The position numbers were made by a program, and so were the translations under genes. A model generated the notes under the pieces. The model worked only from the letters and a program-made list of their open reading frames with translations. It had not been told where the DNA came from and did not search any database. Shown here piece after piece: positions 1 to 63,478 of a DNA stretch of 64,000 nt. Each line of letters starts with the position of its first letter. The stretch's first letter is position 1. Origin of the DNA: Prinia subflava (taxonomy: Eukaryota; Chordata; Aves; Passeriformes; Cisticolidae); contig NW_026961078.1 in the NCBI RefSeq assembly GCF_021018805.1, forward strand, positions 77,001-141,000, given 5' to 3'.

Positions 1-410
1 GGAAAAAATTAGAAAGGAAAACATTAAAAAGGAGAAAAATTAAAAAGAGAAAAATAAAAAATAAAAAATTAAAAAGGAAAAAATTATAGTGGAAAAAATT
101 ATAGAGGAAAAAATGACAAAGGAAAAAATGACAAAGGAAAAATTACTAAGGAAACATTAAAAAATACAAAACAACCGCAAACATAAAAATAAAACATAAA
201 TCTAAATAAAAATTTAAAAGGTATTGAAAATAAAATAAAAAGTGAAATCATAACTATAAAATATAAAAGTAAACTAAAAATCGAAAAATTAAAAATTTGA
301 GGAAACATTAAAATATTTTTTAAAAGTCAAAATAAAAAAACATGAAAATCTAAAACACAATAAAATAAAATAGCATGAAAAAATACAACAATAACAACAA
401 CAAAGGAATT
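1..410. repeat. AT-rich microsatellite-like tract, first of the unit
   Basis: Degenerate GGAAAAAATTA / AAAAAGGA units of 11-13 bp at the start, grading into A-rich sequence with AATAAAA and AACAACAA. The + strand is strongly purine-rich. It follows the YY1 promoter region in every junction (8247, 16530, 24797, 33083, 55090, 63455). Not coding: translations are low-complexity Phe/Ile/Leu strings. Confidence 0.85.
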
Positions 411-594
411 CAATAAATGCAGCTCTCCCCTCCTTCCACTGCCTAACACAGCTCCAGGAGTGTTCTTGACTGTGATGCAGGGATAGGGAAAACAAACCCA
501 GTGCCTCCCACAAATTCAGGTTTTCTAGACAACCCCCAGTTTTACTGGGAAACCAATTCTAGCCAAGCCAGCAACTCCCCTGGGATGAACATCT

Positions 595-731
595 GCAGTA
601 CCGCGCTGTGTCCACAGGGCGGCAGCACTGGGACGGGCACGGGGCAGAGCTGCAGCACCGCGCTGTGTCCACAAGGCGGCAGCACTGGGACGGGCCCGGG
701 GCAGAGCTGCAGTACCGCGCTGTGTCCACAG
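595..731. repeat. 57-bp minisatellite, 2.4 copies (copy A)
   Basis: Period 57 bp, beginning GCAGTACCGCGCTGTGTCCA; full repeats at 595-651 and 652-708, partial at 709-731. Equivalent blocks: 8864-9000, 17147-17283, 25415-25551 and 33704-33840, all 2.4 copies. Because 57 is divisible by 3, frames stay open through it and give repetitive peptides on both strands. I do not treat these as proteins. Confidence 0.9.
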
Positions 732-734
732 CAG

Positions 735-1640
735 ACAGGGACCCCCGAAGAGAACGTGCACAGAAACCCCCTAAAAGAAACGCCCCGAAAGACACCCGGC
801 CGCCGCTTAAAAGAGAACCCCTGCCACCAAGCAAATTCAAACCAAAAAACCCCCTCTGTTTTAAGCTCTATTCCATTATTTCTTTACATTTATTATTTTA
901 ATATTGATAATTACCATGTCTTTTTTCTAGTCATATCTATGGATGTAATATATAGACTACTGTATATAATATAAGTAATGAGAAATATTATAGATTGCAT
1001 TTACTTACGATATTATTTTTCATATTTATATTTGTTTTATTATATATATTCATATTTTTGTACTTAGTTTTTAAAATTCGTGTTTATTGCTGTATGTTTT
1101 AAACTCTATTAATTCAGTAACCTAAACACGACAGCACCCCAATTAAGCAGAATTACATTAGCCTGGTTTTCTAAGGGAGAAAGTGGTTTTAAATTAAAAT
1201 AATATTGGTATAATTTCTCTTTCTCTGTTCTTTTGTGGGGTTGGTGGATTTTTTTTTTTTTTTTATGTTGTTTGTTTTGTTTTGGATTTCTTTGTTACTA
1301 AACAATGAGAGTTACAAGATCAAGTCTACTTTGTTTTCTCGCTACCTGTGAAATACACCTCGACTTCAAGGTAATGTTCCTGATCCTGTAAATGGCTACA
1401 ATGAGAATTGTTCGGGGGAAAAAGGAAAAAGAAAAAAGAAGGCCCCTTGGTCTTTAGAGCTTTCTCTGTTCAGGATTTCTAATTTAGCAGAAAATACAGA
1501 GATTTCTCTAGCTGCACTCTCAATTCTATCCGGACGTGGACTGGACATGGATTTCATTTGTCACCTCCTCTGTTCCCACCAGCCAAACTTCTACATACTT
1601 GGGCTATAAAAAAGTAGATAAAAGAGTAGAGAGAGAGGAA
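735..1640. other. No gene recognised (unit left part)
   Basis: AT-rich sequence with a T-run (about 1249-1264) that differs in length between copies (longest in G, near 56420). Short open frames here have no recognisable domain. Equivalent stretches in B-E and G are the same; copy F holds a diverged version at about 53810-54465. Confidence 0.6.
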
Positions 1641-1642
1641 AA

Positions 1643-1700
1643 AACCAAACCAAACCAAACCAAACCAAACCAAACCAGACCAAACCAAACCAAACCAAAA
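1643..1700. repeat. CCAAA pentanucleotide microsatellite
   Basis: About eleven AACCA/CCAAA units with one interruption (CCAGA). Equivalent tracts lie at about 9912, 18195, 26464, 34750 (shortened, copy E) and 56824 (expanded, copy G). It is length-polymorphic between units. Confidence 0.9.
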
Positions 1701-1769
1701 CACACCAACACAAAGAAAACATGAAGAAAAAAAAAAAGTTTTCAAATAAAATTTCAAGTAAAACACAGA

Positions 1770-2215
1770 AAAAAATAAAATTAAAAAGTTAAAAAGGAAA
1801 AATTAGAAAGAAAGAAAATAAAAAGCAAAAATTAAAAGGAAAAAAATAAAAAGGAAAAAAGTAAAAAGGAAAAAAATAAAAAGGAAAAAATAAAAAGGAA
1901 AAAATAAAAAGAAAAAAATTAAAAAGGAAAAAATTAAAAAGGAAAAAAATAAAAAGGAAAAAATTAAAAAGGAAAAAATTAAAAAGGAAAAAAATAAAAA
2001 GGAAAAAATTAAAAAGGAAAAAGTTAAAGAGAGAAAAAAAGAGGAAAAAATAAAAAGGAAAAAAATAAAAAGGAAAAAAGTAAAAAGGAAAAAATAAAAT
2101 AGGAAAATTACAAAGGAAAAATTACAAAGGAAAAATTACAAAGGAAAAATTAAAATAGAAAATTTCTTAAAAGAAAAAATTTAAAAATACAAAAAGACAT
2201 CACTTATTAAAAAAA
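1770..2215. repeat. AT-rich microsatellite-like tract, second of the unit
   Basis: Tandem AAAAAGGAAAAAATT / AAAAAGGAAAAAATA units of 12-14 bp. It accounts for most of the length difference between units: B and D are longer, E is much shorter. The monomer resembles that of the first AT-rich tract 1.4 kb upstream. Confidence 0.88.
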
Positions 2216-2219
2216 AACC

Positions 2220-2836
2220 CTACATAAAAAATTCAAAGTAATTAAAAATAAAGAAAAAAGTATAATCAACTTTACAAAGAGATTCATTATGGCAATTCAA
2301 CACTTAGCAAGTTTCCCTGGAAATTTACAGACTTGTGGGCATATGGTGCTGAACAATGCCTGATTTACCAACATGAAATTGGTACATTTCCTTGGCAATG
2401 TGCCCTGAGCAGTACAAAAATTCCAATCAGCATGGAAAATATGAAAAAAAAAAAATTCTTTACTAAAATGAGAGAGAGGAAAACCAGCAAATCCAAGGAA
2501 CAAAGAACATCTAAATCCCAGCTTGCCTGGAAAACAAGCTCAGGAATTTCTAACAAGGAAAACTTTTGCAGCTTTGGAGGAATTTGGTGCAAGTTCATGG
2601 AATGATGATTTCAAATCTGCTTCCCCTGCTCTGATTTTAAAGGGAAGCGGCATTAAACACGTCAAGTTACTCCTGTCCAAGAAGGATCCCTATTTTGTGT
2701 GAGTAACAATCCCAAGAAACTCCAGTCTTACTTGTATTTGACATCTCAAAGTCTCAGCAGAGTTGGGAAGTTTCAATGAAACAAAAGAGCCACAATGCCT
2801 GGAACAACAAAATTCTACTTGGCCAAAATCAGGACA
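2220..2836. other. Unrecognised unique sequence downstream of the MIS18A-like gene
   Basis: Conserved between units. It contains a short + strand open frame (2333-2605, 90 codons) with no recognisable domain and an internal Lys-rich stretch made by an A-run. It probably is intergenic sequence. Confidence 0.4.
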
Positions 2837-2912
2837 TTTATTTACAAATCCAGGGAGGAGGAGGAGGAGGATAACACCAGGAACACACTCCAGCTGAAAG
2901 TCACCGTTTATT
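2837..2912 (-). terminator. PolyA signals of the MIS18A-like gene (copy A)
   Basis: Two AATAAA hexamers lie on the minus strand at 2907-2912 and 2837-2842, about 445 and 515 bp downstream of the proposed stop codon (3359-3357). Either could end the transcript. The nearer one recurs at 11190, 19459, 27743, 35858 (orphaned, copy E) and 58122. The stretch 2913-3356 would be 3' UTR. Confidence 0.55.
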
Positions 2913-3464
2913 GGAAAAGGCAGGAAATAAAATGGACACTCTCTGGTTCTGCTCCAGCAATTCTCCGGGAGTCGGAGATAAAAGTGGGAACCTCAGACCA
3001 GGACAGGGCGTTCCAGGGGCTCTGCCTCGCAGGGGCTCTCTCCTCTTTTGCCAGCTGCCTGCAAGAGGAAAAACAACGGGAGTCAAGTGTCAAACCTGGG
3101 CAGGATGTCCTCGGTTGAGGCAGATGGAACAGGCCCCCCCACAGAGTGAGTCCAGGCCGGGTGCCGGGGAGCTCCGGCAATCGGGGGCCGCCCGTGGCAC
3201 CAAAGGGCTGGAAAAGCAGCCCCGGCTGCCCGGGTTTGGTGCCGGCACACGGCAAGGTCTGGCCACAGGGGCAGCACTCAGTGCTGGGACCGCAGGAGAA
3301 CGGCCCAAAGCCGGGTCCAACATCCAGCAGTGCAGGCAGCACACCCCGGGAGAAACTCAGGGGGGAGAAGCCCCCCGGATGCTCCCTGCACACTCCACGT
3401 TCCCGGCCTTTGGCAGCTGTGCCAGGGCCTCCCTCAGAACACCGACCTCACCGTGCAGCTCCTG

Positions 3465-5249
3465 CTAAATAGGAGAACCTGGGGAAACCACGCAGAAATC
3501 CAGGCATTTCCAGTTCTTGAGAGCCAAAGCGGCAGCAAAATGCGTGCAAACTTCGTGCTGCCGCACGAAGGGAAAACAAACCCAGTGCCTCCCACAAATT
3601 CAGGTTTATTAAAATAATCCCGGTATATTTTCTCTTTCTTTGTTCTCTTAGGCAGTGGGGTTTGGGGCTTTTTAGTGGTTTTTATGGTTGTTTTGTTTTC
3701 AGACCCTGAGTCTGAAGGTACTGGTTCTGCTCAGAACAGTTCATTTCCAAAAAGCAGTGAAACTAGGAAAGGTGCTTCCAAGAAAAACGTGGCCTAGGAG
3801 ACACATGCAGCTGGGTTCCACAGTCCCAGTCCCCCTCCCAAAGGCTCAAGATATTTCTGTACTTGCAGCACAGGACTAGGAATCGGGGTGAACGCAAACT
3901 GGTTTGCTGGCTTTTCTTCTGCCAGAGATACAGAGCGGAGCTTTCCTGTTCCTCGGTTTCTTTTGTGTGGTAGCAGGGGTAATTGCAAGTGCTAAGAAAG
4001 TGATCAAAAATATCCATAAGCCTTCTTATAGTGATTAAAAATATCCATAAGCCTTACCATAAGGTAAACTCAAGACAATTGCTGCTGCCTCTATTTATCT
4101 GTCTTTTGAGTTGCTCACAAGGTGATCCTTCGCAAATGCTGGCGCTGACAAATCCAGCAGATAGATACAGCAGCCCCAGAAGTATGTGTGGGCATTTGTG
4201 AGGAGTGATGTGGGCACTTGCCCCCCAGATTCTCATCCGCATGGGAAATAGATGGTTTGACAGGAACAGATCCTGTCTCAGCTTGGCCAGTCCCAGCTGT
4301 CTCTTACTAAAGAGTCACAGAGACCAGGAATGCTCAGGCAAGAGGTAATTCCTCAGATTTGCTGGATGTAAATTTGGGAGAAACATGGTAACTCATAGCT
4401 TGTACTGCTGGAACTCCCTCAAGATCCAAACCACAGGCTCTGTTCTCCTGTGTGCTGCTACCAGTGGGGCAGAGTGGGGAAATTCATTCTGAGTTTTTGG
4501 AGAAAACTTCAAATCTCACAGTAAGTAAGTAAGTAAGTGCTAGGTAGTGTTAGGTAACAAAAAAACCACAAACAAATCCCAAACCCAAAGAAAGGGCTCA
4601 AACCTGATCTCAGCAATTCTTTCCATTCGATTCTCTCCTCGCTTCTTTCATCCTGTGAAAGCTCACCCGGCTCTAACATTCTCTGTCCACACAGTAACTC
4701 TTTCCAGCCTTGGTCAGTGTCAGAGCCACACACTCAGCTTTGGCTGGACAACCTTCAGCTTCCACAGTCCACTTCCTCAGACTGTTTGCTCCCAACTCTT
4801 CCTACCTGCAGTCACAAGATTTTAGTAGAGCAAAACATCAACCTGATTTACCATGATTCATTTATGATTACTATTTCAAGATAAAGTTACAGCAAAAGCA
4901 TTAAGTCCATTTCCACAGGAGGCAGAAGAAACATGGCTAAAAGTTAAATGAAGATCTGGAGAAGTGAATCAGAACGAACTAGAAACAACTGATCCAATTT
5001 CTGAGACAGCCAGAGGAACCTAATGCTGTGCTTGATAAACAGAAAATGCTAACTACCAAGAAAACTGAAGGAAAAGTGGCTAAAAGTCTTGCAGAGCACG
5101 ACGACAGCAATTACAGGAAGCAGTCCAGTACATGTTACAATGCACTGAATTGCTCTGAGTGGAATAAGCTGTTCTGCAGAAACCATTGAAGCATATTAAG
5201 ACTTCTCAGAGGTGATTTCAACAAAGAATGATGTAAGGTTAAAACTCAC
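3465..5249. other. Intron 3 of the MIS18A-like gene
   Basis: Lies between exons 3 and 4 on the minus strand. It contains a 19-bp direct repeat (AAAAATATCCATAAGCCTT at 4007 and 4038), a TAAG tetranucleotide run near 4521, and a + strand stretch ending at a stop (3703-3797) that follows a good acceptor-like pyrimidine tract. No recognisable coding exon was found besides those listed. Confidence 0.5.
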
Positions 5250-6731
5250 CCTGTGCGGCACCTCTTGCAAGACAGCTGGGCTTTCAAGAGTAAGCGGCTC
5301 CTCGTGAATGCGAGCTTGCTTTTCCAGGGTTCCTGGCCTACAGCTGAGATGCCACAGGTTACATCAGGTTACAGAGCACTTCCCACTCTGAAGCCAAAAA
5401 TCCAAACACAGCACTCCTTTAGAACCCTGAGAGACAGCCGTGGATTCTGGGGATACGGGATACAGTGGAAAATGGCACCAAGACACCAAGAACAGTGCAG
5501 TGCTGGCAGGCAGAAGCAGCATCCCTTTGCCAGAAAATGCCATTCTGCAGCCAAGTTAGTGCATGAGAGAATTTTACTGCCATGCAATAAAAAAAGTACT
5601 CTAGCAGTGGAATGAAGAAAAAAATCTCCAAACCCTGTCCAGAGTACCAAGGGGAATATCCACAGCAATACAGCAAAATAAATGGGAACTTCAGAAAAAA
5701 AAAAGAGACATTAAAACCAGTCCAGATGAACAACCACTGTCTATTAGGACAATGCCTGCACAAAAGGACTCTGGTGCGGAGCCTTAATTGAGGATACAGT
5801 TTTTAATAACCCCTTTGAAGTGCTATAAACCAACTAAACCCGAGCACACTTTCATTTTCCAGACAGATTTTAAGACAGCTGAGTGAGAGTCTCAAGCACG
5901 TACTCAGTTGTCAGAGTTGCCTTTGCCCATCTTAGCAAGGACAGAGCAGATGTGGCCAGCACAGGGCAGAGCCACCCCAAGTCCTGCCCGAGCCCCTCTG
6001 GCCACACTCCCTGCTGATCATGCGGACCCCTAACAGGCTCCAGCCAGGCCTCTTTGGTGCTTGGTTTGTGAACTCTTCCAATCAAATGCGAAGGAACCCT
6101 CCAGTGCCCTGGACCTGGTGATATTTTCTGGGCTGGAATGCAACTTCCCACACAAAAGGCAGGCCAGGTTGGTTTGTTTTGGTTCTTTTTCTAGGATGTG
6201 CCTTACACAGGTGATGTTCCCTACAGCTGAGCACTGGGATGCCAACAGCACCAATACAGAAAACCACCGTGGGACAGAGCAGCAGAAGACGCTCCCTCCA
6301 GCCTTGCCAGAGATGTAACAGGAGCACCCTCAGTGCCATGCCTGGTGAGTGCAGTGGAGCTGGCAGGCTGACCCATAAACATTCTGCACTTACCTTTCAA
6401 CAGAGTCAGTACGGACACAGAACAAATCCCTCTTGCAGTCGAGATGCCTTGAGGCGTGCATGTATCTGCTGCCAAGGGTCCTGGAGCAGCCAGAGCAGAG
6501 TAGGGTTTCTACCATGCTGCAAGCAAGGAATAACATTTATTCAGAAGAAAATAAAAGGAGGCACCTCTCCCCATCCCTTTTCTTAAAAATAAAAAAAAAA
6601 TTTTAAATCATGCATTAGAACTTTTTTAACCTTTCATTCATGCTTTACACAGTGTAAATGATGAGCACTCATCTTTTAGCCTGAATTTGCATCAGCTCCT
6701 CAGGCTGGCTAACCTCAGCAAGACCAAGACC

Positions 6732-7080
6732 ATCAGAATCGCTGAATTGTGGAAGGGGCCTTCAAGCTCACCCCATTCCACCCCCGGCCCTGGGCAGGGA
6801 CAGCTTCCACTATCCCAGGGCGTTCCAAGCCCCGTCCAACCTGGCCTTGGGCACTTCCAGGGACACAGGGGCAGCCACAGCTTCTCTGGGGAACCTGTAC
6901 CACGGCCTCACCGCCCTCGCAGGGAAAAATTTCTTCCCGACATTTAATCTAAAGCTGCCTCCCTTGTCCATCACTACATGTCCTTGTGAGAAATCCCTCT
7001 CCCTTAGGCCATACGCGGCTTGTACAGCCCACCCCAGATAAGTGCTCCAGGGGCTCTCGGGCCACACGAGCGCTCCGGGC
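6732..7080 (-). mobile_element. CR1 LINE 3' fragment in MIS18A intron 1 (copy A)
   Basis: The + strand reads GAATTGTGGAAGGGGCC, then CCTGGGCAGGGACAGCTTCC, GTCCAACCTGGCCTTGGGCA, TTCTCTGGGGAACCTGT and AATTTCTTCCCGACATTTAA: the complement of the avian CR1 3' region in its usual order. The degenerate 3'-terminal octamers (ATTCTGTG type) lie at the 6732 end, so the element runs on the minus strand, the same as the gene. The 7045-7080 end (GTGCTCCAGGGGCTCTCGGG) is less certain. Confidence 0.85.
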
Positions 7081-7632
7081 CCTTTGCCGGTCCCCAGCGC
7101 CGGGAACCCCGACTCCCCCGGGACTGTGTCCAGCCAGGCCCGGCCCTCACCATCCGCACTCTCCGGGGAGCTCGGAGCCCTTCCGCCCCGGGTCCGCGGC
7201 GACGCTGGCGGCCGCAGCTGCGGCGGGAGGCAGGGCAGGAGGCACGGCGGCAGCGACCGCGGCGGCACGGGGGTGGCAGCGCTGGTACTCACTGCGCAGC
7301 AGGATGGGGCCGCTGTCCTCGACACTGAACCCCAGGTGCGGGTGTCGCCCACGGGGCGCCCGCAGCCGGCGCACATGAACACCATGGGCGTGGGGGCCGC
7401 GTCCGCCCGCCGCTCCTGCTGCTGCTGGGCCCGGTCGGCGCCCGGCTGCAGCAGCGACAGCGAGCGCTCCAGCTCCGGGCACAGCGCCATCGCGTCCCGG
7501 CCGCCCGCCCGCCGACCGGCCGGCAGAGAGCCCGACAGCGCCTTGGAATCGCCCGCCGAGAAGGCGGCAGTGACGGCGCACACCGCCCCGGGACCGCCCC
7601 GGGACCGCCCCGGAACTGCTCCCGTTTTTTCT

Positions 7633-7637
<5 letters not shown>

Positions 7638-7665
<28 letters not shown>
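7638..7665. repeat. Poly-T run upstream of MIS18A exon 1
   Basis: 28 T residues in copy A, of varying length in other copies (near 15921, 24190, 32475, 53055, 62852; shortest in G). On the minus strand it is an A-run about 150 bp 5' of the ATG. In-frame translation through it gives a spurious poly-Lys leader. Confidence 0.9.
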
Positions 7666-7789
7666 CCCCTCTTCCTTCTGTCAAACAAAGAGGAAAGATG
7701 TCTCGAATACACCTGCAGCAGAGCCTTGGTTCGGCCGCGGCTATAGGGTCCAAACCCTATATAAACCCTATATAAACGTTACTTCCGCC

Positions 7790-8230
7790 CGTTGTAGCCG
7801 CCATCTTGGTTGTGGTGAAGACACATCCGGTAGAGCCGCCATCTTTTTTGTGGCACCCCCGAAGGCCCCGGGTAGCTGGTTACTCAGGCGCCTCACCAAA
7901 ATGGCTGCCGCAACCGCACCGCGGCGCGGCACAGCGGGCACACAGCTCCCTCGCGCCGGGAAGCGACGCTGAAAATTGTTCCTGAGCGGCGCCGTTTTCG
8001 GGGTCGGGCGCAGGCAGTTGGGTCGACGCCCATGGGTGGTCCTTGTGTTTTCCCGCCTTTTTTGGCCGCCGTCTTTGGAAGGTCGAAGGCGGCTCGACGA
8101 GCCGCCATCTTGAGCGGGGCATTAGGTGGCTGCCCATACTTCCGGCTGCCATCTTGTTTGTGGCTGAAACCATTTCCTGTTGGGCCGCCATCTTTGTTGT
8201 GGCACGGCCGAAGGCACCCCGGTTTTAAAG
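7790..8230. promoter_or_regulatory. GC-rich promoter region with a YY1-motif cluster (copy A)
   Basis: YY1-like cores (GCCGCCATCTT or close): + strand at 7797, 7835, 8101, 8144 (GCTGCCATCTTG) and 8184; minus strand near 7898-7908 (AAAATGGCTGCC); plus a near match GCCGCCGTCTT at about 8070. Two modules of about 78 bp (7801-7878 and 8150-8228) are diverged copies of each other, each with CATCTT-TTGTGG twice followed by GTGGCAC..CCGAAGGC. The region lies 300-740 bp upstream of the MIS18A-like ATG and could act in either direction. Upstream of exon 1, 7742-7778 has a doubled CCCTATATAAA. Confidence 0.6.
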
Positions 8231-11200
8231 GGGGGTGCCTGACAAAATCGAGAAAGGAGAAATCAGAAAGGAAAAAATTAGAAAGGAAAACATTAAAAAG
8301 GAGAAAAATTAAAAAGAGAAAAATAAAAAATAAAAAATTAAAAAGGAAAAAATTATAGTGGAAAAAATTATAGAGGAAAAAATGACAAAGGAAAAAATGA
8401 CAAAGGAAAAATTACTAAGGAAACATTAAAAAATACAAAACAACCGCAAACATAAAAATAAAACATAAATCTAAATAAAAATTTAAAAGGTATTGAAAAT
8501 AAAATAAAAAGTGAAATCATAACTATAAAATATAAAAGTAAACTAAAAATCGAAAAATTAAAAATTTGAGGAAACATTAAAATATTTTTTAAAAGTCAAA
8601 ATAAAAAAACATGAAAATCTAAAACACAATAAAATAAAATAGCATGAAAAAATACAACAATAACAACAACAAAGGAATTCAATAAATGCAGCTCTCCCCT
8701 CCTTCCACTGCCTAACACAGCTCCAGGAGTGTTCTTGACTGTGATGCAGGGATAGGGAAAACAAACCCAGTGCCTCCCACAAATTCAGGTTTTCTAGACA
8801 ACCCCCAGTTTTACTGGGAAACCAATTCTAGCCAAGCCAGCAACTCCCCTGGGATGAACATCTGCAGTACCGCGCTGTGTCCACAGGGCGGCAGCACTGG
8901 GACGGGCACGGGGCAGAGCTGCAGCACCGCGCTGTGTCCACAAGGCGGCAGCACTGGGACGGGCCCGGGGCAGAGCTGCAGTACCGCGCTGTGTCCACAG
9001 CAGACAGGGACCCCCGAAGAGAACGTGCACAGAAACCCCCTAAAAGAAACGCCCCGAAAGACACCCGGCCGCCGCTTAAAAGAGAACCCCTGCCACCAAG
9101 CAAATTCAAACCAAAAAACCCCCTCTGTTTTAAGCTCTATTCCATTATTTCTTTACATTTATTATTTTAATATTGATAATTACCATGTCTTTTTTCTAGT
9201 CATATCTATGGATGTAATATATAGACTACTGTATATAATATAAGTAATGAGAAATATTATAGATTGCATTTACTTACGATATTATTTTTCATATTTATAT
9301 TTGTTTTATTATATATATTCATATTTTTGTACTTAGTTTTTAAAATTCGTGTTTATTGCTGTATGTTTTAAACTCTATTAATTCAGTAACCTAAACACGA
9401 CAGCACCCCAATTAAGCAGAATTACATTAGCCTGGTTTTCTAAGGGAGAAAGTGGTTTTAAATTAAAATAATATTGGTATAATTTCTCTTTCTCTGTTCT
9501 TTTGTGGGGTTGGTGGATTTTTTTTTTTTTTTTATGTTGTTTGTTTTGTTTTGGATTTCTTTGTTACTAAACAATGAGAGTTACAAGATCAAGTCTACTT
9601 TGTTTTCTCGCTACCTGTGAAATACACCTCGACTTCAAGGTAATGTTCCTGATCCTGTAAATGGCTACAATGAGAATTGTTCGGGGGAAAAAGGAAAAAG
9701 AAAAAAGAAGGCCCCTTGGTCTTTAGAGCTTTCTCTGTTCAGGATTTCTAATTTAGCAGAAAATACAGAGATTTCTCTAGCTGCACTCTCAATTCTATCC
9801 GGACGTGGACTGGACATGGATTTCATTTGTCACCTCCTCTGTTCCCACCAGCCAAACTTCTACATACTTGGGCTATAAAAAAGTAGATAAAAGAGTAGAG
9901 AGAGAGGAAAAAACCAAACCAAACCAAACCAAACCAAACCAAACCAGACCAAACCAAACCAAACCAAAACACACCAACACAAAGAAAACATGAAGAAAAA
10001 AAAAAAGTTTTCAAATAAAATTTCAAGTAAAACACAGAAAAAAATAAAATTAAAAAGTTAAAAAGGAAAAATTAGAAAGAAAGAAAATAAAAAGCAAAAA
10101 TTAAAAGGAAAAAAATAAAAAGGAAAAAAGTAAAAAGGAAAAAAATAAAAAGGAAAAAATAAAAAGGAAAAAATAAAAAGAAAAAAATTAAAAAGGAAAA
10201 AATTAAAAAGGAAAAAAATAAAAAGGAAAAAATTAAAAAGGAAAAAATTAAAAAGGAAAAAAATAAAAAGGAAAAAATTAAAAAGGAAAAAGTTAAAGAG
10301 AGAAAAAAAGAGGAAAAAATAAAAAGGAAAAAAATAAAAAGGAAAAAATAAAAAGGAAAAAAGTAAAAAGGAAAAAATAAAATAGGAAAATTACAAAGGA
10401 AAAATTACAAAGGAAAAATTACAAAGGAAAAATTAAAATAGAAAATTTCTTAAAAGAAAAAATTTAAAAATACAAAAAGACATCACTTATTAAAAAAAAA
10501 CCCTACATAAAAAATTCAAAGTAATTAAAAATAAAGAAAAAAGTATAATCAACTTTACAAAGAGATTCATTATGGCAATTCAACACTTAGCAAGTTTCCC
10601 TGGAAATTTACAGACTTGTGGGCATATGGTGCTGAACAATGCCTGATTTACCAACATGAAATTGGTACATTTCCTTGGCAATGTGCCCTGAGCAGTACAA
10701 AAATTCCAATCAGCATGGAAAATATGAAAAAAAAAAAATTCTTTACTAAAATGAGAGAGAGGAAAACCAGCAAATCCAAGGAACAAAGAACATCTAAATC
10801 CCAGCTTGCCTGGAAAACAAGCTCAGGAATTTCTAACAAGGAAAACTTTTGCAGCTTTGGAGGAATTTGGTGCAAGTTCATGGAATGATGATTTCAAATC
10901 TGCTTCCCCTGCTCTGATTTTAAAGGGAAGCGGCATTAAACACGTCAAGTTACTCCTGTCCAAGAAGGATCCCTATTTTGTGTGAGTAACAATCCCAAGA
11001 AACTCCAGTCTTACTTGTATTTGACATCTCAAAGTCTCAGCAGAGTTGGGAAGTTTCAATGAAACAAAAGAGCCACAATGCCTGGAACAACAAAATTCTA
11101 CTTGGCCAAAATCAGGACATTTATTTACAAATCCAGGGAGGAGGAGGAGGAGGATAACACCAGGAACACACTCCAGCTGAAAGTCACCGTTTATTGGAAA

Positions 11201-11639
11201 AGGCAGGAAATAAAATGGACACTCTCTGGTTCTGCTCCAGCAATTCTCCGGGAGTCGGAGATAAAAGTGGGAACCTCAGACCAGGACAGGGCATTCCAGG
11301 GGCTCTGCCTCGCAGGAGCTCTCTCCTCTTTTGCCAGCTGCCTGCAAGAGGAAAAACAACGGGAGTCAAGTGTCAAACCTGGGCAGGATGTCCTCGGTTG
11401 AGGCAGATGGAACAGGCCCCCCCACAGAGTGAGTCCAGGCCGGGTGCCGGGGAGCTCCGGCAATCGGGGGCCGCCCGTGGCACCAAAGGGCTGGAAAAGC
11501 AGCCCCGGCTGCCCGGGTTTGGTGCCGGCACACGGCAAGGTCTGGCCACAGGGGCAGCACTCAGTGCTGGGACCGCAGGAGAACGGCCCAAAGCCGGGTC
11601 CAACATCCAGCAGTGCAGGCAGCACACCCCGGGAGAAAC

Positions 11640-15915: not shown

Positions 15916-15948
<33 letters not shown>

Positions 15949-39905: not shown

Positions 39906-39954
39906 GCATGGGGCAGAGCCCCTCACCTGGAATGGGGCCCTCTGCCATGGATCT

Positions 39955-49893: not shown

Positions 49894-50673
49894 CTACCAG
49901 TGGGGCAGAGTGGGGAAATTAATTCTGAGTTTTTGGAGAAAACTTTAAATCTCACAGTAGTAATGCTAAGCAGTGTTGGGTAACAAAAAAACCAAAACAA
50001 ATCCCAAACCCAAAGAAAGGGCTCAAACCTGATCTCAGCAATTCTTTCCATTCGATTCTCTCCTCGCTCCTTTCATCCTGTGAAAGCTCACCTGGCTCTA
50101 ACATTCTCTGTCCACACAGTAACTCTTTCCAGCCTTGGTCAGTGTCAGAGCCACACACTCAGCTTTGGCTGGACAACCTTCAGCTTCCACAGTCCACTTC
50201 CTCAGGCTGTTCGCTCCCAACTCTTCCTACCTGCAGTCACAAGATTTTAGTAGAGCAAAACATCAACTTGATTTACCATGATTAATTTGTGATTAATATT
50301 TCAAGATAAAGTTACAGCAAAAGCATTAAGTCCATTTCCACAGGAGGCAGAAGAAACATGGCTAAAAGTTAAATGAAGATCTAGAGAAGTGAATCGGAAC
50401 TAACTAGAAACATCATATCAAATTTCTGAGACAGAAATAGGAACCTAATGCTGTGCTTGATAAACAGAAAATGCTAACTACCAAGAAAACTGAAGGAAAA
50501 GTGGCTAAAAGTCTTGCAGAGCACAAGACAGCAATTACAGGAAGCAGTCCAGTACATGTTACAATGCACTGAATTGCTCTGGGTGGAATAAGCTGTTCTG
50601 CAGAAACCATTGAAGCATATTAAGATTTCTCAGAGGTGATTTCAACAAAGAATGATGTAAGGTTAAATCTCAC

Positions 50674-52906: not shown

Positions 52907-53048
52907 CGCGTCCCGGCCGCCCGCCCGCCGACCGGCCGGCAGAGAGCCCGACAGCGCCTTGGAATCGCCCGCCGAGAAGGCGGCAGTGACGGCGCACACC
53001 GCCCCGGGACCGCCCCGGGACCGCCCCGGAACTGCTCCCGTTTTTTCT

Positions 53049-53080
<32 letters not shown>

Positions 53081-53169
53081 CCCTCTTCCTTCTGTCAAAC
53101 AAAGAGGAAAGATGTCTCGAATACACCTGCAGCAGAGCCTTGGTTCGGCCGCGGCTATAGGGTCCAAAC

Positions 53170-53690
53170 CGGGCGAACTCGGCGAGGTTCGGCGGAGCTT
53201 GTTCGGTTCGACTCCGTTCCAGTCGGCTAAACGCGGTTGGGTTCGGCTGTTATCGGTTGCACTCGGCCATTTTCGGCCCTTCAGCTTAACTCGGCCGATC
53301 TCGGCAATGCTCGGCTCTTTTCGGCTGTTCGGAAATCCTCGGGTGTTTTCGGCTCTTCGGCCACACTCGGATCTAACCGGCACAGCTCGGCTATGCAGTC
53401 GCTTAGATTCCGCTCTTCGGGACAGCTCGGCACGGTCGAACCGCACTCGGTGCCGCTCCCCGCGCTCCCGCAGCTCCGCTCGGCTCCATGAGGGCGGCGC
53501 GGGCCGGGCCGAGGCGCCGCACGGGCAAGCGGGGCCGGCTCCCTTTAAACACGCAGCGCTCGGTGTTTTCCTGCTGCCGAGTCCCGCGGGCGGCCCGGCC
53601 ATCGCACGGACACGGCCGGGAGCGCGGAATCGAACAGGAGCTCCCGGGCAGTGACCGCACTCGGGCACTAAGAACCAGCTTCCAGCCCGG
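53170..53690. repeat. CCGA-motif-rich degenerate repeat block upstream of MIS18A copy F
   Basis: From 53170 to about 53430, CTCGGC/TTCGGC (minus: GCCGAG/GCCGAA) recurs roughly every 10-18 bp, about twenty times, with no fixed period. The rest (53430-53690) is GC- and CpG-rich. It replaces the CCCTATATAAA sequence found at this point in all other units. A 557-codon minus-strand open frame (53899-52226) runs through it into exon 1 and intron 1; I judge that fortuitous. Confidence 0.75.
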
Positions 53691-53696
53691 GGCCCC

Positions 53697-54465
53697 TTGG
53701 GGCCGGGCACGGGGCAGAGCTGCAGTACCGCGCTGTGTCCACAGGGCGGCAGCACCGCGGCCCGGCCCGGGGCTCCCCGCCCGTCGGGGACACGCAGAAA
53801 GGGACCCCCCAAAGAGAACGTGCACAGAAATCCCCTAAGAGAAACGCCCCGAAAGACACCCGGCCACCGCTTCAAAGACAACCCCTGCCACCAAGCCAAT
53901 TCAAACCAAAAAAACCCCCTCTGTTCTAAGCTCTATTCCATGATTTCTTTACATTCATTAGTTTTATATTGATCATTACCCTGTCTTTTTTCTAGTCATA
54001 TCTATGGATATAATATATAGACTACTGTAATAATATAAGTAATGAGTAATATTATAGATTGTATTTATGTCTATTCATGATATCATTTTTCATATTTATA
54101 TTTCTGCTGTTATTATATCTATTCATATTTTTATATTTCTGTACTTATTTTTCAAAATTCGTGTCTATTTCTGTATGTTTAAAACTCTGCTAATTCATTA
54201 ACCTAACACGTCAGCACCACAATTAAGCAGAATTACATTAGCCTGGTTTTCTAAGGGGGAAAGTGGTTTGAAATTAAAATAATATTGGTCTATTTTCTCT
54301 TTCTCTGTTATTTAGGGTGGGTTTTTTAATAATATTATTTGTTTTGTTTTCGATTTCTTTGTTAGTAAACAATGAGAGCTACAAAATCAAAAGTCTACTT
54401 TGTTTTCTTGCTACCTGTGAAATACACCTCGACTTCAAGGTACTGCTGCTGATCCTGTAAAAGGA
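53697..54465. repeat. Diverged fragment of the array unit (unit ~640-1410)
   Basis: Follows the unit from the 57-bp minisatellite (a single copy here) through the AT-rich region to GATCCTGTAAA, but with far more substitutions and indels than any pair of full units. It therefore separated earlier. It then joins directly to unit position about 7970. Confidence 0.88.
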
Positions 54466-54633
54466 TAAAAAGTTGTTCCCGGGCGGCGCTATTTTCGGGG
54501 TCGGGTGCAGGCAGTTGGGTCGACGCCCATGGGTGGTCCTTGTGTTTTCCCGCCTTTTTGGCCGCCATCTTTGGAAGGTCGAAAGCAGCTCGCTGAGCCG
54601 CCATCTTGAGAGTGGTGTCACGTTCCTTCCGCC
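54466..54633. repeat. Diverged fragment of the YY1 promoter region (unit ~7970-8120)
   Basis: Reads TTGTTCCCGGGCGGCGCTAT, then CAGTTGGGTCGACGCCCATG and GCCGCCATCTTTGG, like unit 7970-8120 with substitutions. It is followed at 54634 by unit position 7790, so part of the promoter region is present twice in copy F. Confidence 0.88.
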
Positions 54634-55074
54634 CGTTGTAGCCGCCATCTTGGTTGTGGTGAAGACACATCCGGTAGAGCCGCCATCTTTTTTGTGGCAC
54701 CCCCGAAGGCCCCGGGTAGCTGGTTACTCAGGCGCCTCACCAAAATGGCTGCCGCAACCGCACCGCGGCGCGGCACAGCGGGCACACAGCTCCCTCGCGC
54801 CGGGAAGCGACGCTGAAAATTGTTCCTGAGCGGCGCCGTTTTCGGGGTCGGGCGCAGGCAGTTGGGTCGACGCCCATGGGTGGTCCTTGTGTTTTCCCGC
54901 CTTTTTTGGCCGCCGTCTTTGGAAGGTCGAAGGCGGCTCGACAAGCCGCCATCTTGAGCGGGGCATTAGGTGACTGCCCATACTTCCGGCTGCCATCTTG
55001 TTTGTGGCTGAAACCATTTCCTGTTGGGCCGCCATCTTTGTTGTGGCACGGCCGAAGGCACCCCGGTTTTAAAG
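54634..55074. promoter_or_regulatory. YY1-motif promoter region (copy F)
   Basis: Normal promoter sequence as in A-C, but here separated from MIS18A exon 1 (52906) by 1.46 kb of foreign and diverged sequence. A second, older copy of part of the region lies just before it (54466-54633), with GCCGCCATCTT at about 54561 and 54597. Confidence 0.55.
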
Positions 55075-55707
55075 GGGGGTGCCTGACAAAATCGAGAAAG
55101 GAGAAATCAGAAAGGAAAAAATTAGAAAGGAAAACATTAAAAAGGAGAAAAATTAAAAAGAGAAAAATAAAAAATAAAAAATTAAAAAGGAAAAAATTAT
55201 AGTGGAAAAAATTAGAGAGGAAAAAATGACAAAGGAAAAAATTACAAAGGAAAAATTACTAAGGAAACATTAAAAAATACAAAACAACCGCAAACATAAA
55301 AATAAAACATAAATCTAAATAAAAATTTAAAAGTTATTGAAAATAAAATAAAAAGTGAAATCATAACTATAAAATATAAAAGTAAACTAAAAATCGAAAA
55401 ATTAAAAATTTGAGGAAACATTAAAATATTTTTTAAAAGTCAAAATAAAAAAACATGAAAATCTAAAACACAATAAAATAAAATAGCATGAAAAAATACA
55501 ACAATAACAACAACAAAGGAATTCAATAAATGCAGCTCTCCCCTCCTTCCACTGCCTAACACAGCTCCAGGAGTGTTCTTGACTGTGATGCAGGGATAGG
55601 GAAAACAAACCCAGTGCCTCCCACAAATTCAGGTTTTCTAGACAACCCCCAGTTTTACTGGGAAACCAATTCTAGCCAAGCCAGCAACTCCCCTGGGATG
55701 AACATCT

Positions 55708-55901
55708 GCAGTACCGCGCTGTGTCCACAGGGCGGCAGCACTGGGACGGGCACGGGGCAGAGCTGCAGCACCGCGCTGTGTCCACAAGGCGGCAGCACTG
55801 GGACGGGCCCGGGGCAGAGCTGCAGTACCGCGCTGTGTCCACAAGGCGGCAGCACTGGGACGGGCCCGGGGCAGAGCTGCAGTACCGCGCTGTGTCCACA
55901 G
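55708..55901. repeat. 57-bp minisatellite, expanded to 3.4 copies (copy G)
   Basis: Same minisatellite as in the other units with exactly one additional repeat, a copy of the GGGCCC-type second repeat. Confidence 0.9.
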
Positions 55902-56418
55902 CAGACAGGGACCCCCGAAGAGAACGTGCACAGAAACCCCCTAAAAGAAACGCCCCGAAAGACACCCGGCCGCCGCTTAAAAGAGAACCCCTGCCACCAA
56001 GCAAATTCAAACCAAAAAACCCCCTCTGTTTTAAGCTCTATTCCATTATTTCTTTACATTTATTATTTTAATATTGATAATTACCATGTCTTTTTTCTAG
56101 TCATATCTATGGATATAATATATAGACTACTGTATATAATATAAGTAATGAGAAATATTATAGATTGCATTTACTTACGATATTATTTTTCATATTTATA
56201 TTTGTTTTATTATATATATTCATATTTTTGTACTTAGTTTTTAAAATTCGTGTTTATTGCTGTATGTTTTAAACTCTATTAATTCAGTAACCTAAACACG
56301 ACAGCACCCCAATTAAGCAGAATTACATTAGCCTGGTTTTCTAAGGGAGAAAGTGGTTTTAAATTAAAATAATATTGGTATAATTTCTCTTTCTCTGTTC
56401 TTTTGTGGGGTTGGTGGA

Positions 56419-56449
<31 letters not shown>

Positions 56450-58571
56450 GTTTGTTTTGTTTCGGATTTCTTTGTTACTAAACAATGAGAGTTACAAGAT
56501 CAAGTCTACTTTGTTTTCTCGCTACCTGTGAAATACACCTCGACTTCAAGGTAATGTTCCTGATCCTGTAAATGGCTACAATGAGAATTGTTCGGGGGAA
56601 AAAGGAAAAAGAAAAAAGAAGGCCCCTTGGTCTTTAGAGCTTTCTCTGTTCAGGATTTCTAATTTAGCAGAAAATACAGAGATTTCTCTAGCTGCACTCT
56701 CAATTCTATCCGGACGTGGAGTGGACATGGATTTCATTTGTCACCTCCTCTGTTCCCACCAGCCAAACTTCTACATACTTGGGCTATAAAAAAGTAGATA
56801 AAAGAGTAGAGAGAGAGGAAAAAACCAAACCAAACCAAACCAAACCAAACCAAACCAAACCAAACCAGACCAAACCAAACCAAACCAAACCAAACCAAAA
56901 CACACCAACACAAAGAAAACATGAAGAAAAAAAAAAAGTTTTCAAATAAAATTTCAAGTAAAACACAGAAAAAAATAAAATTAAAAAGTTAAAAAGGAAA
57001 AATTAGAAAGAAAGAAAATAAAAAGCAAAAATTAAAAGGAAAAAAATAAAAAGGAAAAAAGTAAAAAGGAAAAAATAAAAAGGAAAAAATAAAAAGGAAA
57101 AAATAAAAAGAAAAAAATTAAAAAGGAAAAAATTAAAAAGGAAAAAATTAAAAAGGAAAAAAAATAAAAAGGAAAAAATTAAAAAGGAAAAAATTAAAAA
57201 GGAAAAAAATAAAAAGGAAAAAATTAAAAAGGAAAAAGTTAAAGAGAGAAAAAAAGAGGAAAAAATAAAAAGGAAAAAAATAAAAAGGAAAAAATAAAAA
57301 GGAAAAAAATAAAAAGGAAAAAATAAAATAGGAAAATTACAAAGGAAAAATTACAAAGGAAAAATTAAAATAGAAAATTTTTTAAAAGAAAAAATTTAAA
57401 AATACAAAAAGACATCACTTATTAAAAAAAAACCCTACATAAAAAATTCAAAGTAATTAAAAATAAAGAAAAAAGTATAATCAACTTTACAAAGAGATTC
57501 ATTATGGCAATTCAACACTTAGCAAGTTTCCCTGGAAATTTACAGACTTGTGGGCATATGGTGCTGAACAATGCCTGATTTACCAACATGAAATTGGTAC
57601 ATTTCCTTGGCAATGTGCCCTGAGCAGTACAAAAATTCCAATCAGCATGGAAAATATGAAAAAAAAAAAATCCTTTACTAAAATGAGAGAGAGGAAAACC
57701 AGCAAATCCAAGGAACAAAGAACATCTAAATCCCAGCTTGCCTGGAAAACAAGCTCAGGAATTTCTAACAAGGAAAACTTTTGCAGCTTTGGAGGAATTT
57801 GGTGCAAGTTCATGGAATGATGATTTCAAATCTGCTTCCCCTGCTCTGATTTTAAAGGGAAGCGGCATTAAACACGTCAAGTTACTCCTGTCCAAGAAGG
57901 ATCCCTATTTTGTGTGAGTAACAATCCCAAGAAACTCCAGTCTTACTTGTATTTGACATCTCAAAGTCTCAGCAGAGTTGGGAAGTTTCAATGAAACAAA
58001 AGAGCCACAATGCCTGGAACAACAAAATTCTACTTGGCCAAAATCAGGACATTTATTTACAAATCCAGGGAGGAGGAGGAGGAGGATAACACCAGGAACA
58101 CACTCCAGCTGAAAGTCACCGTTTATTGGAAAAGGCAGGAAATAAAATGGACACTCTCTGGTTCTGCTCCAGCAATTCTCCGGGAGTCGGAGATAAAAGT
58201 GGGAACCTCAGACCGGGACAGGGCATTCCAGGGGCTCTGCCTCGCAGGGGCTCTCTCCTCTTTTGCCAGCTGCCTGCAAGAGGAAAAACAACGGGAGTCA
58301 AGTGTCAAACCTGGGCAGGATGTCCTCGGTTGAGGCAGATGGAACAGGCCCCCCCACAGAGTGAGTCCAGGCCGGGTGCCGGGGAGCTCCGGCAATCGGG
58401 GGCCGCCCGTGGCACCAAAGGGCTGGAAAAGCAGCCCCGGCTGCCCGGGTTTGGTGCCGGCACACGGCAAGGTCTGGCCACAGGGGCAGCACTCAGTGCT
58501 GGGACCGCAGGAGAACGGCCCAAAGCCGGGTCCAACATCCAGCAGTGCAGGCAGCACACCCCGGGAGAAAC

Positions 58572-61500
58572 TCAGGGGGGAGAAGCCCCCCGGATGCTCC
58601 CTGCACACTCCACGTTCCCGGCCTTTGGCAGCTGTGCCAGGGCCTCCCTCAGAACACCGACCTCACCGTGCAGCTCCTGCTAAATAGGAGAACCTGGGGA
58701 AACCACGCAGAAATCCAGGCATTTCCAGTTCTTGAGAGCCAAAGCGGCAGCAAAATGCGTGCAAACTTCGTGCTGCCGCACGAAGGGAAAACAAACCCAG
58801 TGCCTCCCACAAATTCAGGTTTATTAAAAGAATCCCGGTATATTTTCTCTTTCTTTGTTCTCTTAGGCAGTGGGTTTTGGGGCTTTTTAGTGGTTTTTAT
58901 GGTTGTTTTGTTTTCAGACCCTGAGTCTGAAGGTACTGGTTCTGCTCAGAACAGTTCATTTCCAAAAAGCAGTGAAACTAGGAAAGGTGCTTCCAAGAAA
59001 AACGTGGCCTAGGAGACACATGCAGCTGGGTTCCACAGTCCCAGTCCCCCTCCCAAAGGCTCAAGATATTTCTGTACTTGCAGCACAGGACTAGGAATCG
59101 GGGTGAACGCAAACTGGTTTGCTGGCTTTTCTTCTGCCAGAGATACAGAGCGGAGCTTTCCTGTTCCTCGGTTTCTTTTGTGTGGTAGCAGGGGTAATTG
59201 CAAGTGCTAAGAAAGTGATCAAAAATATCCATAAGCCTTCTTATAGTGATTAAAAATATCCATAAGCCTTACCATAAGGTAAACTCAAGACAATTGCTGC
59301 TGCCTCTATTTATCTGTCTTTTGAGTTGCTCACAAGGTGATCCTTCGCAAATGCTGGCGCTGACAAATCCAGCAGATAGATACAGCAGCCCCAGAAGTAT
59401 GTGTGGGCATTTGTGAGGAGTGATGTGGGCACTTGCCCCCCAGATTCTCATCCGCATGGGAAATAGATGGTTTGACAGGAACAGATCCTGTCTCAGCTTG
59501 GCCAGTCCCAGCTGTCTCTTACTAAAGAGTCACAGAGACCAGGAATGCTCAGGCAAGAGGTAATTCCTCAGATTTGCTGGATGTAAATTTGGGAGAAACA
59601 TGGTAACTCATAGCTTGTACTGCTGGAACTCCCTCAAGATCCAAACCACAGGCTCTGTTCTCCTGTGTGCTGCTACCAGTGGGGCAGAGTGGGGAAATTC
59701 ATTCTGAGTTTTTGGAGAAAACTTCAAATCTCACAGTAAGTAAGTAAGTAAGTGCTAGGTAGTGTTAGGTAACAAAAAAACCACAAACAAATCCCAAACC
59801 CAAAGAAAGGGCTCAAACCTGATCTCAGCAATTCTTTCCATTCGATTCTCTCCTCGCTTCTTTCATCCTGTGAAAGCTCACCCGGCTCTAACATTCTCTG
59901 TCCACACAGTAACTCTTTCCAGCCTTGGTCAGTGTCAGAGCCACACACTCAGCTTTGGCTGGACAACCTTCAGCTTCCACAGTCCACTTCCTCAGACTGT
60001 TCGCTCCCAACTCTTCCTACCTGCAGTCACAAGATTTTAGTAGAGCAAAACATCAACCTGATTTACCATGATTCATTTATGATTACTATTTCAAGATAAA
60101 GTTACAGCAAAAGCATTAAGTCCATTTCCACAGGAGGCAGAAGAAACATGGCTAAAAGTTAAATGAAGATCTGGAGAAGTGAATCAGAACGAACTAGAAA
60201 CAACTGATCCAATTTCTGAGACAGCCAGAGGAACCTAATGCTGTGCTTGATAAACAGAAAATGCTAACTACCAAGAAAACTGAAGGAAAAGTGGCTAAAG
60301 GTCTTGCAGAGCACAAGACAGCAATTACAGGAAGCAGTCCAGTACATGTTACAATGCACTGAATTGCTCTGAGTGGAATAAGCTGTTCTGCAGAAACCAT
60401 TGAAGCATATTAAGACTTCTCAGAGGTGATTTCAACAAAGAATGATGTAAGGTTAAAACTCACCCTGTGCGGCACCTCTTGCAAGACAGCTGGGCTTTCA
60501 AGAGTAAGCGGCTCCTCGTGAATGCGAGCTTGCTTTTCCAGGGTTCCTGGCCTACAGCTGAGATGCCACAGGTTACATCAGGTTACAGAACACTTCCCAC
60601 TCTGAAGCCAAAAATCCAAACACAGCACTCCTTTAGAACCCTGAGAGACAGCCGTGGATTCTGGGGATACGGGATACAGTGGAAAATGGCACCAAGACAC
60701 CAAGAACAGTGCAGTGCTGGCAGGCAGAAGCAGCATCCCTTTGCCAGAAAATGCCATTCTGCAGCCAAGTTAGTGCATGAGAGAATTTTACTGCCATGCA
60801 ATAAAAAAAGTACTCTAGCAGTGGAATGAAGAAAAAAATCTCCAAACCCTGTCCAGAGTACCAAGGGGAATATCCACAGCAATACAGCAAAATAAATGGG
60901 AACTTCAGAAAAAAAAAGAGACATTAAAACCAGTCCAGATGAACAACCACTGTCTATTAGGACAATGCCTGCACAAAAGGACTCTGGTGCGGAGCCTTAA
61001 TTGAGGATACAGTTTTTAATAACCCCTTTGAAGTGCTATAAACCAACTAAACCCAAGCACACTTTCATTTTCTAGACAGATTTTAAGACAGCTGAGTGAG
61101 AGTCTCAAGCACGTACTCAGTTGTCAGAGTTGCCTTTGCCCATCTTAGCAAGGACAGAGCAGATGTGGCCAGCACAGGGCAGAGCCACCCCGAGTCCTGC
61201 CCGAGCCCCTCTGGCCACACTCCCTGCTGATCATGCGGACCCCTAACAGGCTCCAGCCAGGCCTCTTTGGTGCTTGGTTTGTGAACTCTTCCAATCAAAT
61301 GCGAAGGAACCCTCTAGTGCCCTGGACCTGGTGATATTTTCTGGGCTGGAATGCAACTTCCCACACAAAAGGCAGGCCAGGTTGGTTTGTTTTGGTTCTT
61401 TTTCTAGGATGTGCCTTACACAGGTGATGTTCCCTACAGCTGAGCACTGGGATGCCAACAGCACCAATACAGAAAACCACCGTGGGACAGAGCAGCAGAA

Positions 61501-62704
61501 GACGCTCCCTCCAGCCTTGCCAGAGATGTAACAGGAGCACCCTCAGTGCCATGCCTGGTGAGTGCAGTGGAGCTGGCAGGCTGACCCATAAACATTCTGC
61601 ACTTACCTTTCAACAGAGTCAGTACGGACACAGAACAAATCCCTCTTGCAGTCGAGATGCCTTGAGGCGTGCATGTATCTGCTGCCAAGGGTCCTGGAGC
61701 AGCCAGAGCAGAGTAGGGTTTCTACCATGCTGCAAGCAAGGAATAACATTTATTCAGAAGAAAATAAAAGGAGGCACCTCTCCCCATCCCTTTTCTTAAA
61801 AATAAAAAAAAAAAATTTAAATCATGCATTAGAACTTTTTTAACCTTTCATTCATGCTTTACTCAGTATAAATGATGAGCACTCATCTTTTAGCCTGAAT
61901 TTGCATCAGCTCCTCAGGGTGGCTAACCTCAGCAAGACCAAGACCATCAGAATCGCTGAATTGTGGAAGGGGCCTTCAAGCTCACCCCATTCCACCCCCG
62001 GCCCTGGGCAGGGACAGCTTCCACTATCCCAGGGTGTTCCAAGCCCCGTCCAACCTGGCCTTGGGCACTTCCAGGGACACAGGGGCAGCCACAGCTTCTC
62101 TGGGGAACCTGTACCACGGCCTCACCGCCCTCGCAGGGAAAAATTTCTTCCCGACATTTAATCTAAAGCTGCCTCCCTTGTCCATCACTACATGTCCTTG
62201 TGAGAAATCCCTCTCCCTTAGGCCATACGCGGCTTGTACAGCCCACCCCAGATAAGTGCTCCAGGGGCTCTCGGGCCACACGAGCGCTCCGGGCCCTTTG
62301 CCGGTCCCCAGCGCCGGGAACCCCGACTCCCCCGGGACTGTGTCCAGCCAGGCCCGGCCCTCACCATCCGCACTCTCCGGGGAGCTCGGAGCCCTTCCGC
62401 CCCGGGTCCGCGGCGACGCTGGCGGCCGCAGCTGCGGCGGGAGGCAGGGCAGGAGGCACGGCGGCAGCGACCGCGGCGGCACGGGGGTGGCAGCGCTGGT
62501 ACTCACTGCGCAGCAGGATGGGACCGCTGTCCTCGACACTGAACCCCAGGTGCGGGTGTCGCCCACGGGGCGCCCGCAGCCGGCGCACATGAACACCATG
62601 GGCGTGGGGGCCGCGTCCGCCCGCCGCTCCTGCTGCTGCTGGGCCCGGTCGGCGCCCGGCTGCAGCAGCGACAGCGAGCGCTCCAGCTCCGGGCACAGCG
62701 CCAT
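58572..62704 (-). pseudogene. MIS18A: MIS18A-like gene, frameshifted (copy G)
   Basis: Exons: 1 = 62704-62365, 2 = 61729-61607, 3 = 60551-60464, 4 = 58679-58572 (tentative). Splice sites are as in copy A. The exon-1 -1 shift is at about 62541-62548. It shares the silent-in-restored-frame variant with D and F. PolyA signal at 58122-58127 (minus). Confidence 0.84.
61946..62294 (-). mobile_element. CR1 fragment (copy G)
   Basis: Same element at the same intron-1 position. Confidence 0.84.
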
Positions 62705-62998
62705 CGCGTCCCGGCCGCCCGCCCGCCGACCGGCCGGCAGAGAGCCCGACAGCGCCTTGGAATCGCCCGCCGAGAAGGCGGCAGTGACGGCGCACACCGC
62801 CCCGGGACCGCCCCGGGACCGCCCCGGAACTGCTCCCGTTTTTTCTTCCTCTTTTTTTTTTTTTTTTTTTTTTTCCCCTCTTCCTTCTGTCAAACAAAAA
62901 GGAAAGATGTCTCGAATACACCTGCAGCAGAGCCTTGGTTCGGCCGCGGCTATAGGGTCCAAACCCTACATAAACCCTATATAAACGTTACTTCCGCC

Positions 62999-63439
62999 CG
63001 TTGTAGCCGCCATCTTGGTTGTGGTGAAGACACATCCGGTAGAGCCGCCATCTTTTTTGTGGCACCCCCGAAGGCCCCGGGTAGCTGGTTACTCAGGCGC
63101 CTCACCAAAATGGCTGCCGCAACCGCACCGCGGCGCGGCACAGCGGGCACACAGCTCCCTCGCGCCGGGAAGCGACGCTGAAAATTGTTCCTGAGCGGCG
63201 CCGTTTTCGGGGTCGGGCGCAGGCAGTTGGGTCGACGCCCATGGGTGGTCCTTGTGTTTTCCCGCCTTTTTTGGCCGCCGTCTTTGGAAGGTCGAAGGCG
63301 GCTCGACGAGCCGCCATCTTGAGCGGGGCATTAGGTGACTGCCCATACTTCCGGCTGCCATCTTGTTTGTGGCTGAAACCATTTCCTGTTGGGCCGCCAT
63401 CTTTGTTGTGGCACGGCCGAAGGCACCCCGGTTTTAAAG
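62999..63439. promoter_or_regulatory. YY1-motif promoter region (copy G)
   Basis: Same motif set and modules as copy A. One CCCTATATAAA just upstream reads CCCTACATAAA here (near 62965). Confidence 0.58.
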
Positions 63440-63478
63440 GGGGGTGCCTGACAAAATCGAGAAAGGAGAAATCAGAAA

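Follow-up and report, generated by a model that had tools for sequence, protein, structure and literature searches.

The window analysed here, a stretch of 64,000 nucleotides of Prinia subflava DNA, is filled mostly by one repeat, which self-comparison resolved into five complete units, one apparently split unit and the start of another. The complete units measure 8269, 8283, 8268, 8283 and 8365 bp, in line with the length of 8.28 kb given in the initial annotation; their phase is arbitrary, being set at the window start, and the left window edge falls inside the repeat phase. Unit 1 (1–8269), delimited by self-comparison and alignment, is directly followed by units 2 (8270–16552, 99.95% identical to unit 1), 3 (16553–24820, 99.96%) and 4 (24821–33103, 99.71%). 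The fifth complete unit, unit 7 (55114–63478, 99.62%), is followed by the start of unit 8 (63479–64000, 99.43% to unit 1 and 100% to unit 7), which is cut by the window end, so that the array continues beyond the window on the right, as had been annotated.

Units 1–3 differ pairwise at only 3–4 positions per approximately 8,268 aligned bases, while 21–44 differences were counted in pairs involving units 4 or 7. Relative to units 1–3, unit 4 carries 21–25 substitutions, unit 7 carries 28–31 and the incomplete unit 5 carries 57–58 (about 1.9%). Chance is excluded as the source of this likeness. Among the 50 variable sites across the five complete units, a few are common to non-neighbour units, namely unit positions 3010 and 5842, to which a 14–15-bp length variant at 2059 is added, and 14 of the 18 substitutions private to unit 4 fall within unit positions 7777–8264. 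Both the sharing between non-neighbours and this clustered tract fit a history of unequal exchange and gene conversion.

Interruption of the array

The tandem order of the units stands, but the array is not continuous: 13.8 kb of other DNA (36,122–49,893, delimited by self-comparison) interrupt it at unit positions of about 3,171–4,457. To the left of this block lies the left part only of unit 5 (33104–36121, unit positions 1 to about 3170, 98.1% identical to unit 1), which lacks exons 1–4 but retains the poly(A) signal and candidate last exon described below. To its right lies the right part of unit 6 (49894–53170, unit positions 4458–7756, placed by alignment), which carries exons 1–4 and differs from unit 1 by 37 substitutions in 3,175 aligned bases. 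A variant upstream stretch (53171–54619) and the upstream part of a unit (54620–55113, unit positions 7776–8269), both recognized by self-comparison, complete the sequence up to unit 7. Parts 5 and 6 thus look like one unit with the 13.8 kb placed inside and about 1.3 kb of the unit (approximately 3171–4457) missing.

Within the block, a GA-rich satellite with periods of 27, 40 and 54 bp occupies the left edge (36118–38041), and a 1.1-kb repeat is present in three diverged copies (38280–39419, 39933–41094 and 43164–44229; 83–87% alike), one frame of which matches a single 66-residue unnamed protein. The region 44300–46850 holds A/C-rich, very G-poor stretches (G about 6%), and the piece breaking this G-poor DNA at about 45.3–45.7 kb looks by eye like a solitary LTR, while the CpG-rich and GC-rich segment 47900–48420, with its 24-bp repeat, resembles by eye the CpG-island promoter of another gene. 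No Pfam match was obtained at E 0.1 for the 10 of 32 listed reading frames of the block that were searched, and neither structural RNAs, at Rfam gathering scores, nor tRNA genes were found in the whole window.

The MIS18A-like gene in each unit

MIS18A, encoding Mis18-alpha, is a centromere-licensing gene. As initially annotated, six MIS18A-like copies lie head to tail: exons 1–4 were found six times, all on the minus strand and in the same orientation, with GT-AG splice sites and start codons at 7490, 15773, 24042, 32326, 52906 and 62704. In unit 1, exon 1 spans 7293–7490 with a frameshift near 7332, exon 2 spans 7151–7217, exon 3 spans 6394–6516 and exon 4 spans 5250–5343, the acceptor of the last being chosen so as to agree with the full-length protein (alternative 5337). 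The corresponding first exons of units 2, 3, 4, 6 and 7 are located at 15576–15773, 23845–24042, 32129–32326, 52709–52906 and 62507–62704. Between exons 2 and 3 lies a minus-strand piece resembling bird reverse-transcriptase proteins (6720–7045 in unit 1, bounds approximate), which we take to be CR1 and which all six copies share at 99.7–100% over 326 bp. A candidate last exon with AATAAA (2898–3058 in unit 1, minus strand), proposed from splice and poly(A) signals and likewise present in every complete unit, is the weakest part of the model: it gave no tblastn match at E 1, while by eye its predicted AAGKRGES is similar to GAGKKGESR at the ends of the Hirundo proteins P0016 and P0096. Since introns are kept and at least four exons have splice sites, a processed pseudogene or retrocopy is ruled out.

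The joined exons match the Yippee-Mis18 domain (PF03226) at 8.6e-19, with an X placed at the frameshift, Mis18-alpha (chain B of structure 7sfz) at 1.8e-25, and bird MIS18A-like proteins, P. subflava ranking first in a search that listed 109 proteins. By these sequence comparisons the likeness of the array exons to MIS18A is far beyond chance, and the gene identity proposed initially is thereby upheld. The closest match in detail is P0001 ('protein Mis18-alpha-like', from a 134,000-bp P. subflava contig), which aligns to the copy at 50.6–52.9 kb in four pieces, two at 100%, one of these being 49 residues that run beyond the exon-4 splice site, and the other two at 97.9 and 98.6%, running beyond an annotated joint. 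Of the six copies, only that of unit 6 has the exon-4 variant of P0001 (QSLIHEEP, VRFNL). By these protein matches the window very probably belongs to P. subflava and is taken to be part of the P0001 contig.

Upstream of exon 1, unit 1 shows a CpG-rich region on the minus strand (7750–8250), delineated by motif count and composition, with four GCCGCCATCTT motifs. In the window 25 such motifs occur against 0.04 expected, on one strand only, most of them being copies of the same four; they presumably resemble YY1 sites and may make the upstream region transcribable. CpG is little depleted, with an observed/expected ratio of 0.84 in exon 1 and its surroundings and 0.97 in the upstream region. CENP-B-box-like and telomere motifs were each counted zero times in the window, a weak test at chance expectations of 0.08 and 0.23, and to our knowledge bird centromeres need no CENP-B box.

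The claim that every copy has the same CR1 insertion and promoter holds for CR1, but not for the upstream region, since 1,449 bp (53,171–54,619) are set into that of the unit 6 copy with its ATG at 52,906. Parts of this inset are 84–92% like other unit positions. The reading frame that spans the left portion of this inset together with exon 1 (53602–52709) agrees at 95% over 298 columns with P0110, a P. subflava gene model from a 39.2-Mb contig, and since the junction recurs there it is not an assembly error.

Exon 1 is frameshifted at an identical site, after VGDTRTW, in all six copies, and the P0001 gene model steps around this shift. The predicted spliced product has 90 residues, ends at a stop in exon 3 and is identical across the six copies except for one A/V difference. 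In the five-exon model of unit 1 this stop ends at nt 273, with downstream junctions at 388 and 482. As a rule, a stop upstream of exon junctions leads to nonsense-mediated decay, which is consequently expected here. Were exon 2 skipped, which is the arrangement modelled in P0104 and P0110, the predicted product would have 102 residues, and an unspliced frame of 226 codons, comprising exon 1, introns and the CR1 end, is open in all six copies and has a 230-residue relative, P0109, at 85% identity.

Setting aside the frameshift and the shortened C-terminus, no stop occurs in exons 1–4 when they are read in the original frame; as only 3.5% of one-step changes in 122 codons give a stop, this absence is too weak as a test of neutrality. 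Exon 4 read on ends in ...VEITSEKS in all six copies, while the end of P0002, the full-length protein of 189 residues, is longer. With the invariance of columns judged on 16 other birds, and only columns ungapped in all of these used, the array differs from P0002 in 34 of 153 compared residues, of which 13 fall on 69 invariant and 21 on 84 variable columns (Fisher p 0.44), a test at the protein level only and with small numbers. The partial Hirundo record P0024, in comparison, differs from P0002 at 0 of 54 invariant and 8 of 49 variable columns. Judged from these protein alignments, the substitution pattern of the array is that of lost constraint. The copies retain the similarity to the Yippee-Mis18 domain expected of a functional MIS18A and lack its continuous frame through the domain, its full C-terminal region and, by this protein-level pattern, its purifying selection. 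Amplification of a working MIS18A locus is rejected on account of the common frameshift and the site pattern, and the full-length gene lies on another contig.

Dispersed relatives in Prinia subflava and other songbirds

The full-length gene, represented by P0002, is located on a 153.9-Mb contig of P. subflava. Ten P. subflava proteins were compared, and in six of them, from six contigs, the shifted frame is directly visible: P0008 (18.3 Mb), P0009 (20.2 Mb), P0104 (74.0 Mb), P0106 (88.1 kb), P0109 (63.5 Mb) and P0110 (39.2 Mb), with exon 1 joined to exon 3 in P0104 and P0110. P0081 and P0088 (21.4 Mb) are without exon 1, and in P0001 and P0002 the shifted frame is absent. A tree of 34 proteins, with manual trimming or masking of four rows, unites the array with three dispersed copies in a single clade (99/100), whose stem of 0.22 compares with a branch of 0.061 for P0002. 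The frameshifted relatives on six more contigs thus point to a dead paralogue that was dispersed and amplified in tandem. Models of the dispersed copies bear isoform labels, which may reflect transcription. In the gene model P0106, MIS18A-like frames are fused with a portion of an MSH4-like protein, a hint that an MSH4 fragment lies next to another MIS18A-like copy outside the window; a search of the window with this MSH4 portion gave nothing credible (best E 0.47).

The premise that MIS18A is normally single-copy holds only roughly for songbirds, where two or three MIS18A-like proteins on different contigs were also found in Oenanthe melanoleuca (P0011 and P0032), Parus major (P0006 and P0078) and Hirundo rustica (P0016, P0096 and P0024). 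MIS18A may therefore duplicate often in songbirds, some records perhaps stemming from different assemblies. Hirundo rustica P0016 and P0096 and Chamaea fasciata P0103 are likewise odd or degenerate extra MIS18A-like copies, which, unlike the array, fall outside the Prinia clade in trees. The FSVE-ESG-ILLR of P0096 corresponds by eye to a 12-letter stretch of the array, but P0096 stays in frame where the array is shifted.

Origin of the array and relation to known systems

We propose that the array is a gene-bearing macrosatellite around a MIS18A pseudogene, kept uniform via unequal exchange and conversion and without a required job, a reading that we consider highly probable; kilobase-sized, near-identical units in head-to-tail order, one mark of such repeats, are what the window contains. 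In P. subflava ancestry, an unprocessed MIS18A duplicate with its introns and CR1 piece would have gained the frameshift in exon 1, and protein selection on it would have been lost, as the common frameshift and the substitution pattern suggest. The dead paralogue would then have spread to several chromosomes, probably by segmental duplication, as indicated by predicted proteins on different contigs. On a single scaffold, the 8.3-kb segment around one copy would have turned into a tandem array, whose growth and uniformity under unequal exchange and gene conversion would account for the near identity and the mosaic variants. Any spliced transcript would meet a stop early and would probably be degraded by nonsense-mediated decay. 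The centromere work would be done by the full-length gene on the large chromosome. Of the options raised initially, it is the satellite that captured the gene which the evidence favours. The kept splice sites, the little depleted CpG, the original frame free of stops other than through the frameshift and the shorter C-terminus, the isoform labels and the open 226-codon frame count against the pseudogene reading.

Some of these features would suit an array acting as a source of MIS18A-homologous RNA (antisense, siRNA/piRNA or decoy) that alters MIS18A level and centromere licensing, for example in the germ line: several near-identical copies are available, the upstream region is CpG-rich, splice sites are kept and gene models of relatives bear isoform labels. 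We nevertheless regard this role as very unlikely, since six copies head to tail on one strand would not be expected to yield hairpin RNA, and array exons that have drifted in 34 of 153 residues from the full-length protein would be weakened as agents of perfect-match silencing. Little probability likewise attaches to the broader view that dispersed and tandem copies together are a transcribed, fast-evolving family feeding back on MIS18A dosage and CENP-A loading in a centromere conflict, be it by small RNA, decoy RNA or a truncated domain.

It is also quite improbable that the array makes a new short protein, whether the spliced one of 90 residues, the exon-2-skipping one of 102 or the read-through of 226. 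In its favour, none of the six copies interrupts the 226-codon frame, P0109 keeps a 230-residue version of it, and exon 1 is joined directly to exon 3 in models P0104 and P0110. Against it, such a product would retain no more than the first half of the Yippee-Mis18 domain, long open frames are presumably common in GC-rich DNA (0.71 GC over 6800–7620), and the copies, belonging to one young array, do not provide independent evidence. Least probable is an assembly artefact in which one or two real units were duplicated by the assembler, for although the 3–4 substitutions among units 1–3 are within reach of errors, these units differ from unit 4, unit 7 and the unit 5 part by 21–25, 28–31 and 57–58 substitutions, some variants are common to non-neighbour units, a gene model from a different contig contains the unit 6 upstream stretch as well, and relatives lie on six other contigs.

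The macrosatellite around a MIS18A pseudogene is thus most likely a striking but non-functional repeat family; a centromere role is not supported, and the initial observation is confirmed with an ordinary mechanism behind it. It shows that, in a single songbird, a gene that licenses centromeres has given rise to both a dispersed family of repeats and a young tandem array. Several P. subflava gene models named 'Mis18-alpha-like' or 'uncharacterized' look like pseudogene copies, which should serve as a warning. If copies were active, they would bear on centromere evolution, and nothing in the analysis requires such activity.

The literature searched, with longer result lists covered in part, reports no MIS18A tandem array, and no paper in it was found to combine MIS18A with the germline-restricted chromosome, nor any on a genome assembly of P. 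subflava. Among the matches listed on the germline-restricted chromosome in songbirds, on the W chromosome and multicopy genes, or on avian gene duplication, none had MIS18A in it, nothing was on point by title for Mis18 with pseudogene and tandem, and nothing by title and start of abstract for MIS18A with bird and tandem. Compared with MIS18A itself (Yippee-Mis18, PF03226), the array matches in exon order and domain and differs in its frameshift and shorter C-terminus.

In D4Z4 and DXZ4, nearly identical units of kilobase size, carrying an open frame or promoter, follow one another head to tail. The array is like them in unit size, near identity and head-to-tail order, while its sequence differs; this likeness is one of unit architecture alone and implies no chromatin or disease role for the array. 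Both are examples of human gene-bearing macrosatellites, as far as the excerpted sources describe them (PMC3018141, PMC6985041). Going by the excerpted text of its report, the nearest precedent is the FAM118A amplification on great tit chromosome 1A, where homozygotes carry about 40 copies of the locus and heterozygotes about 400, the count of a nested 630-bp repeat reaching about 50,000 (PMC12786263). According to the same text, the consensus gene there has a full coding sequence and part of the copies carry a premature stop (PMC12786263). On this description, a conserved vertebrate gene locus has been amplified in a songbird in both cases, and with the present array a further gene locus joins that of the great tit in having grown into a large array by amplification. 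Here, in contrast to FAM118A, every copy in the window is frameshifted and the unit of 8.3 kb comprises the whole locus.
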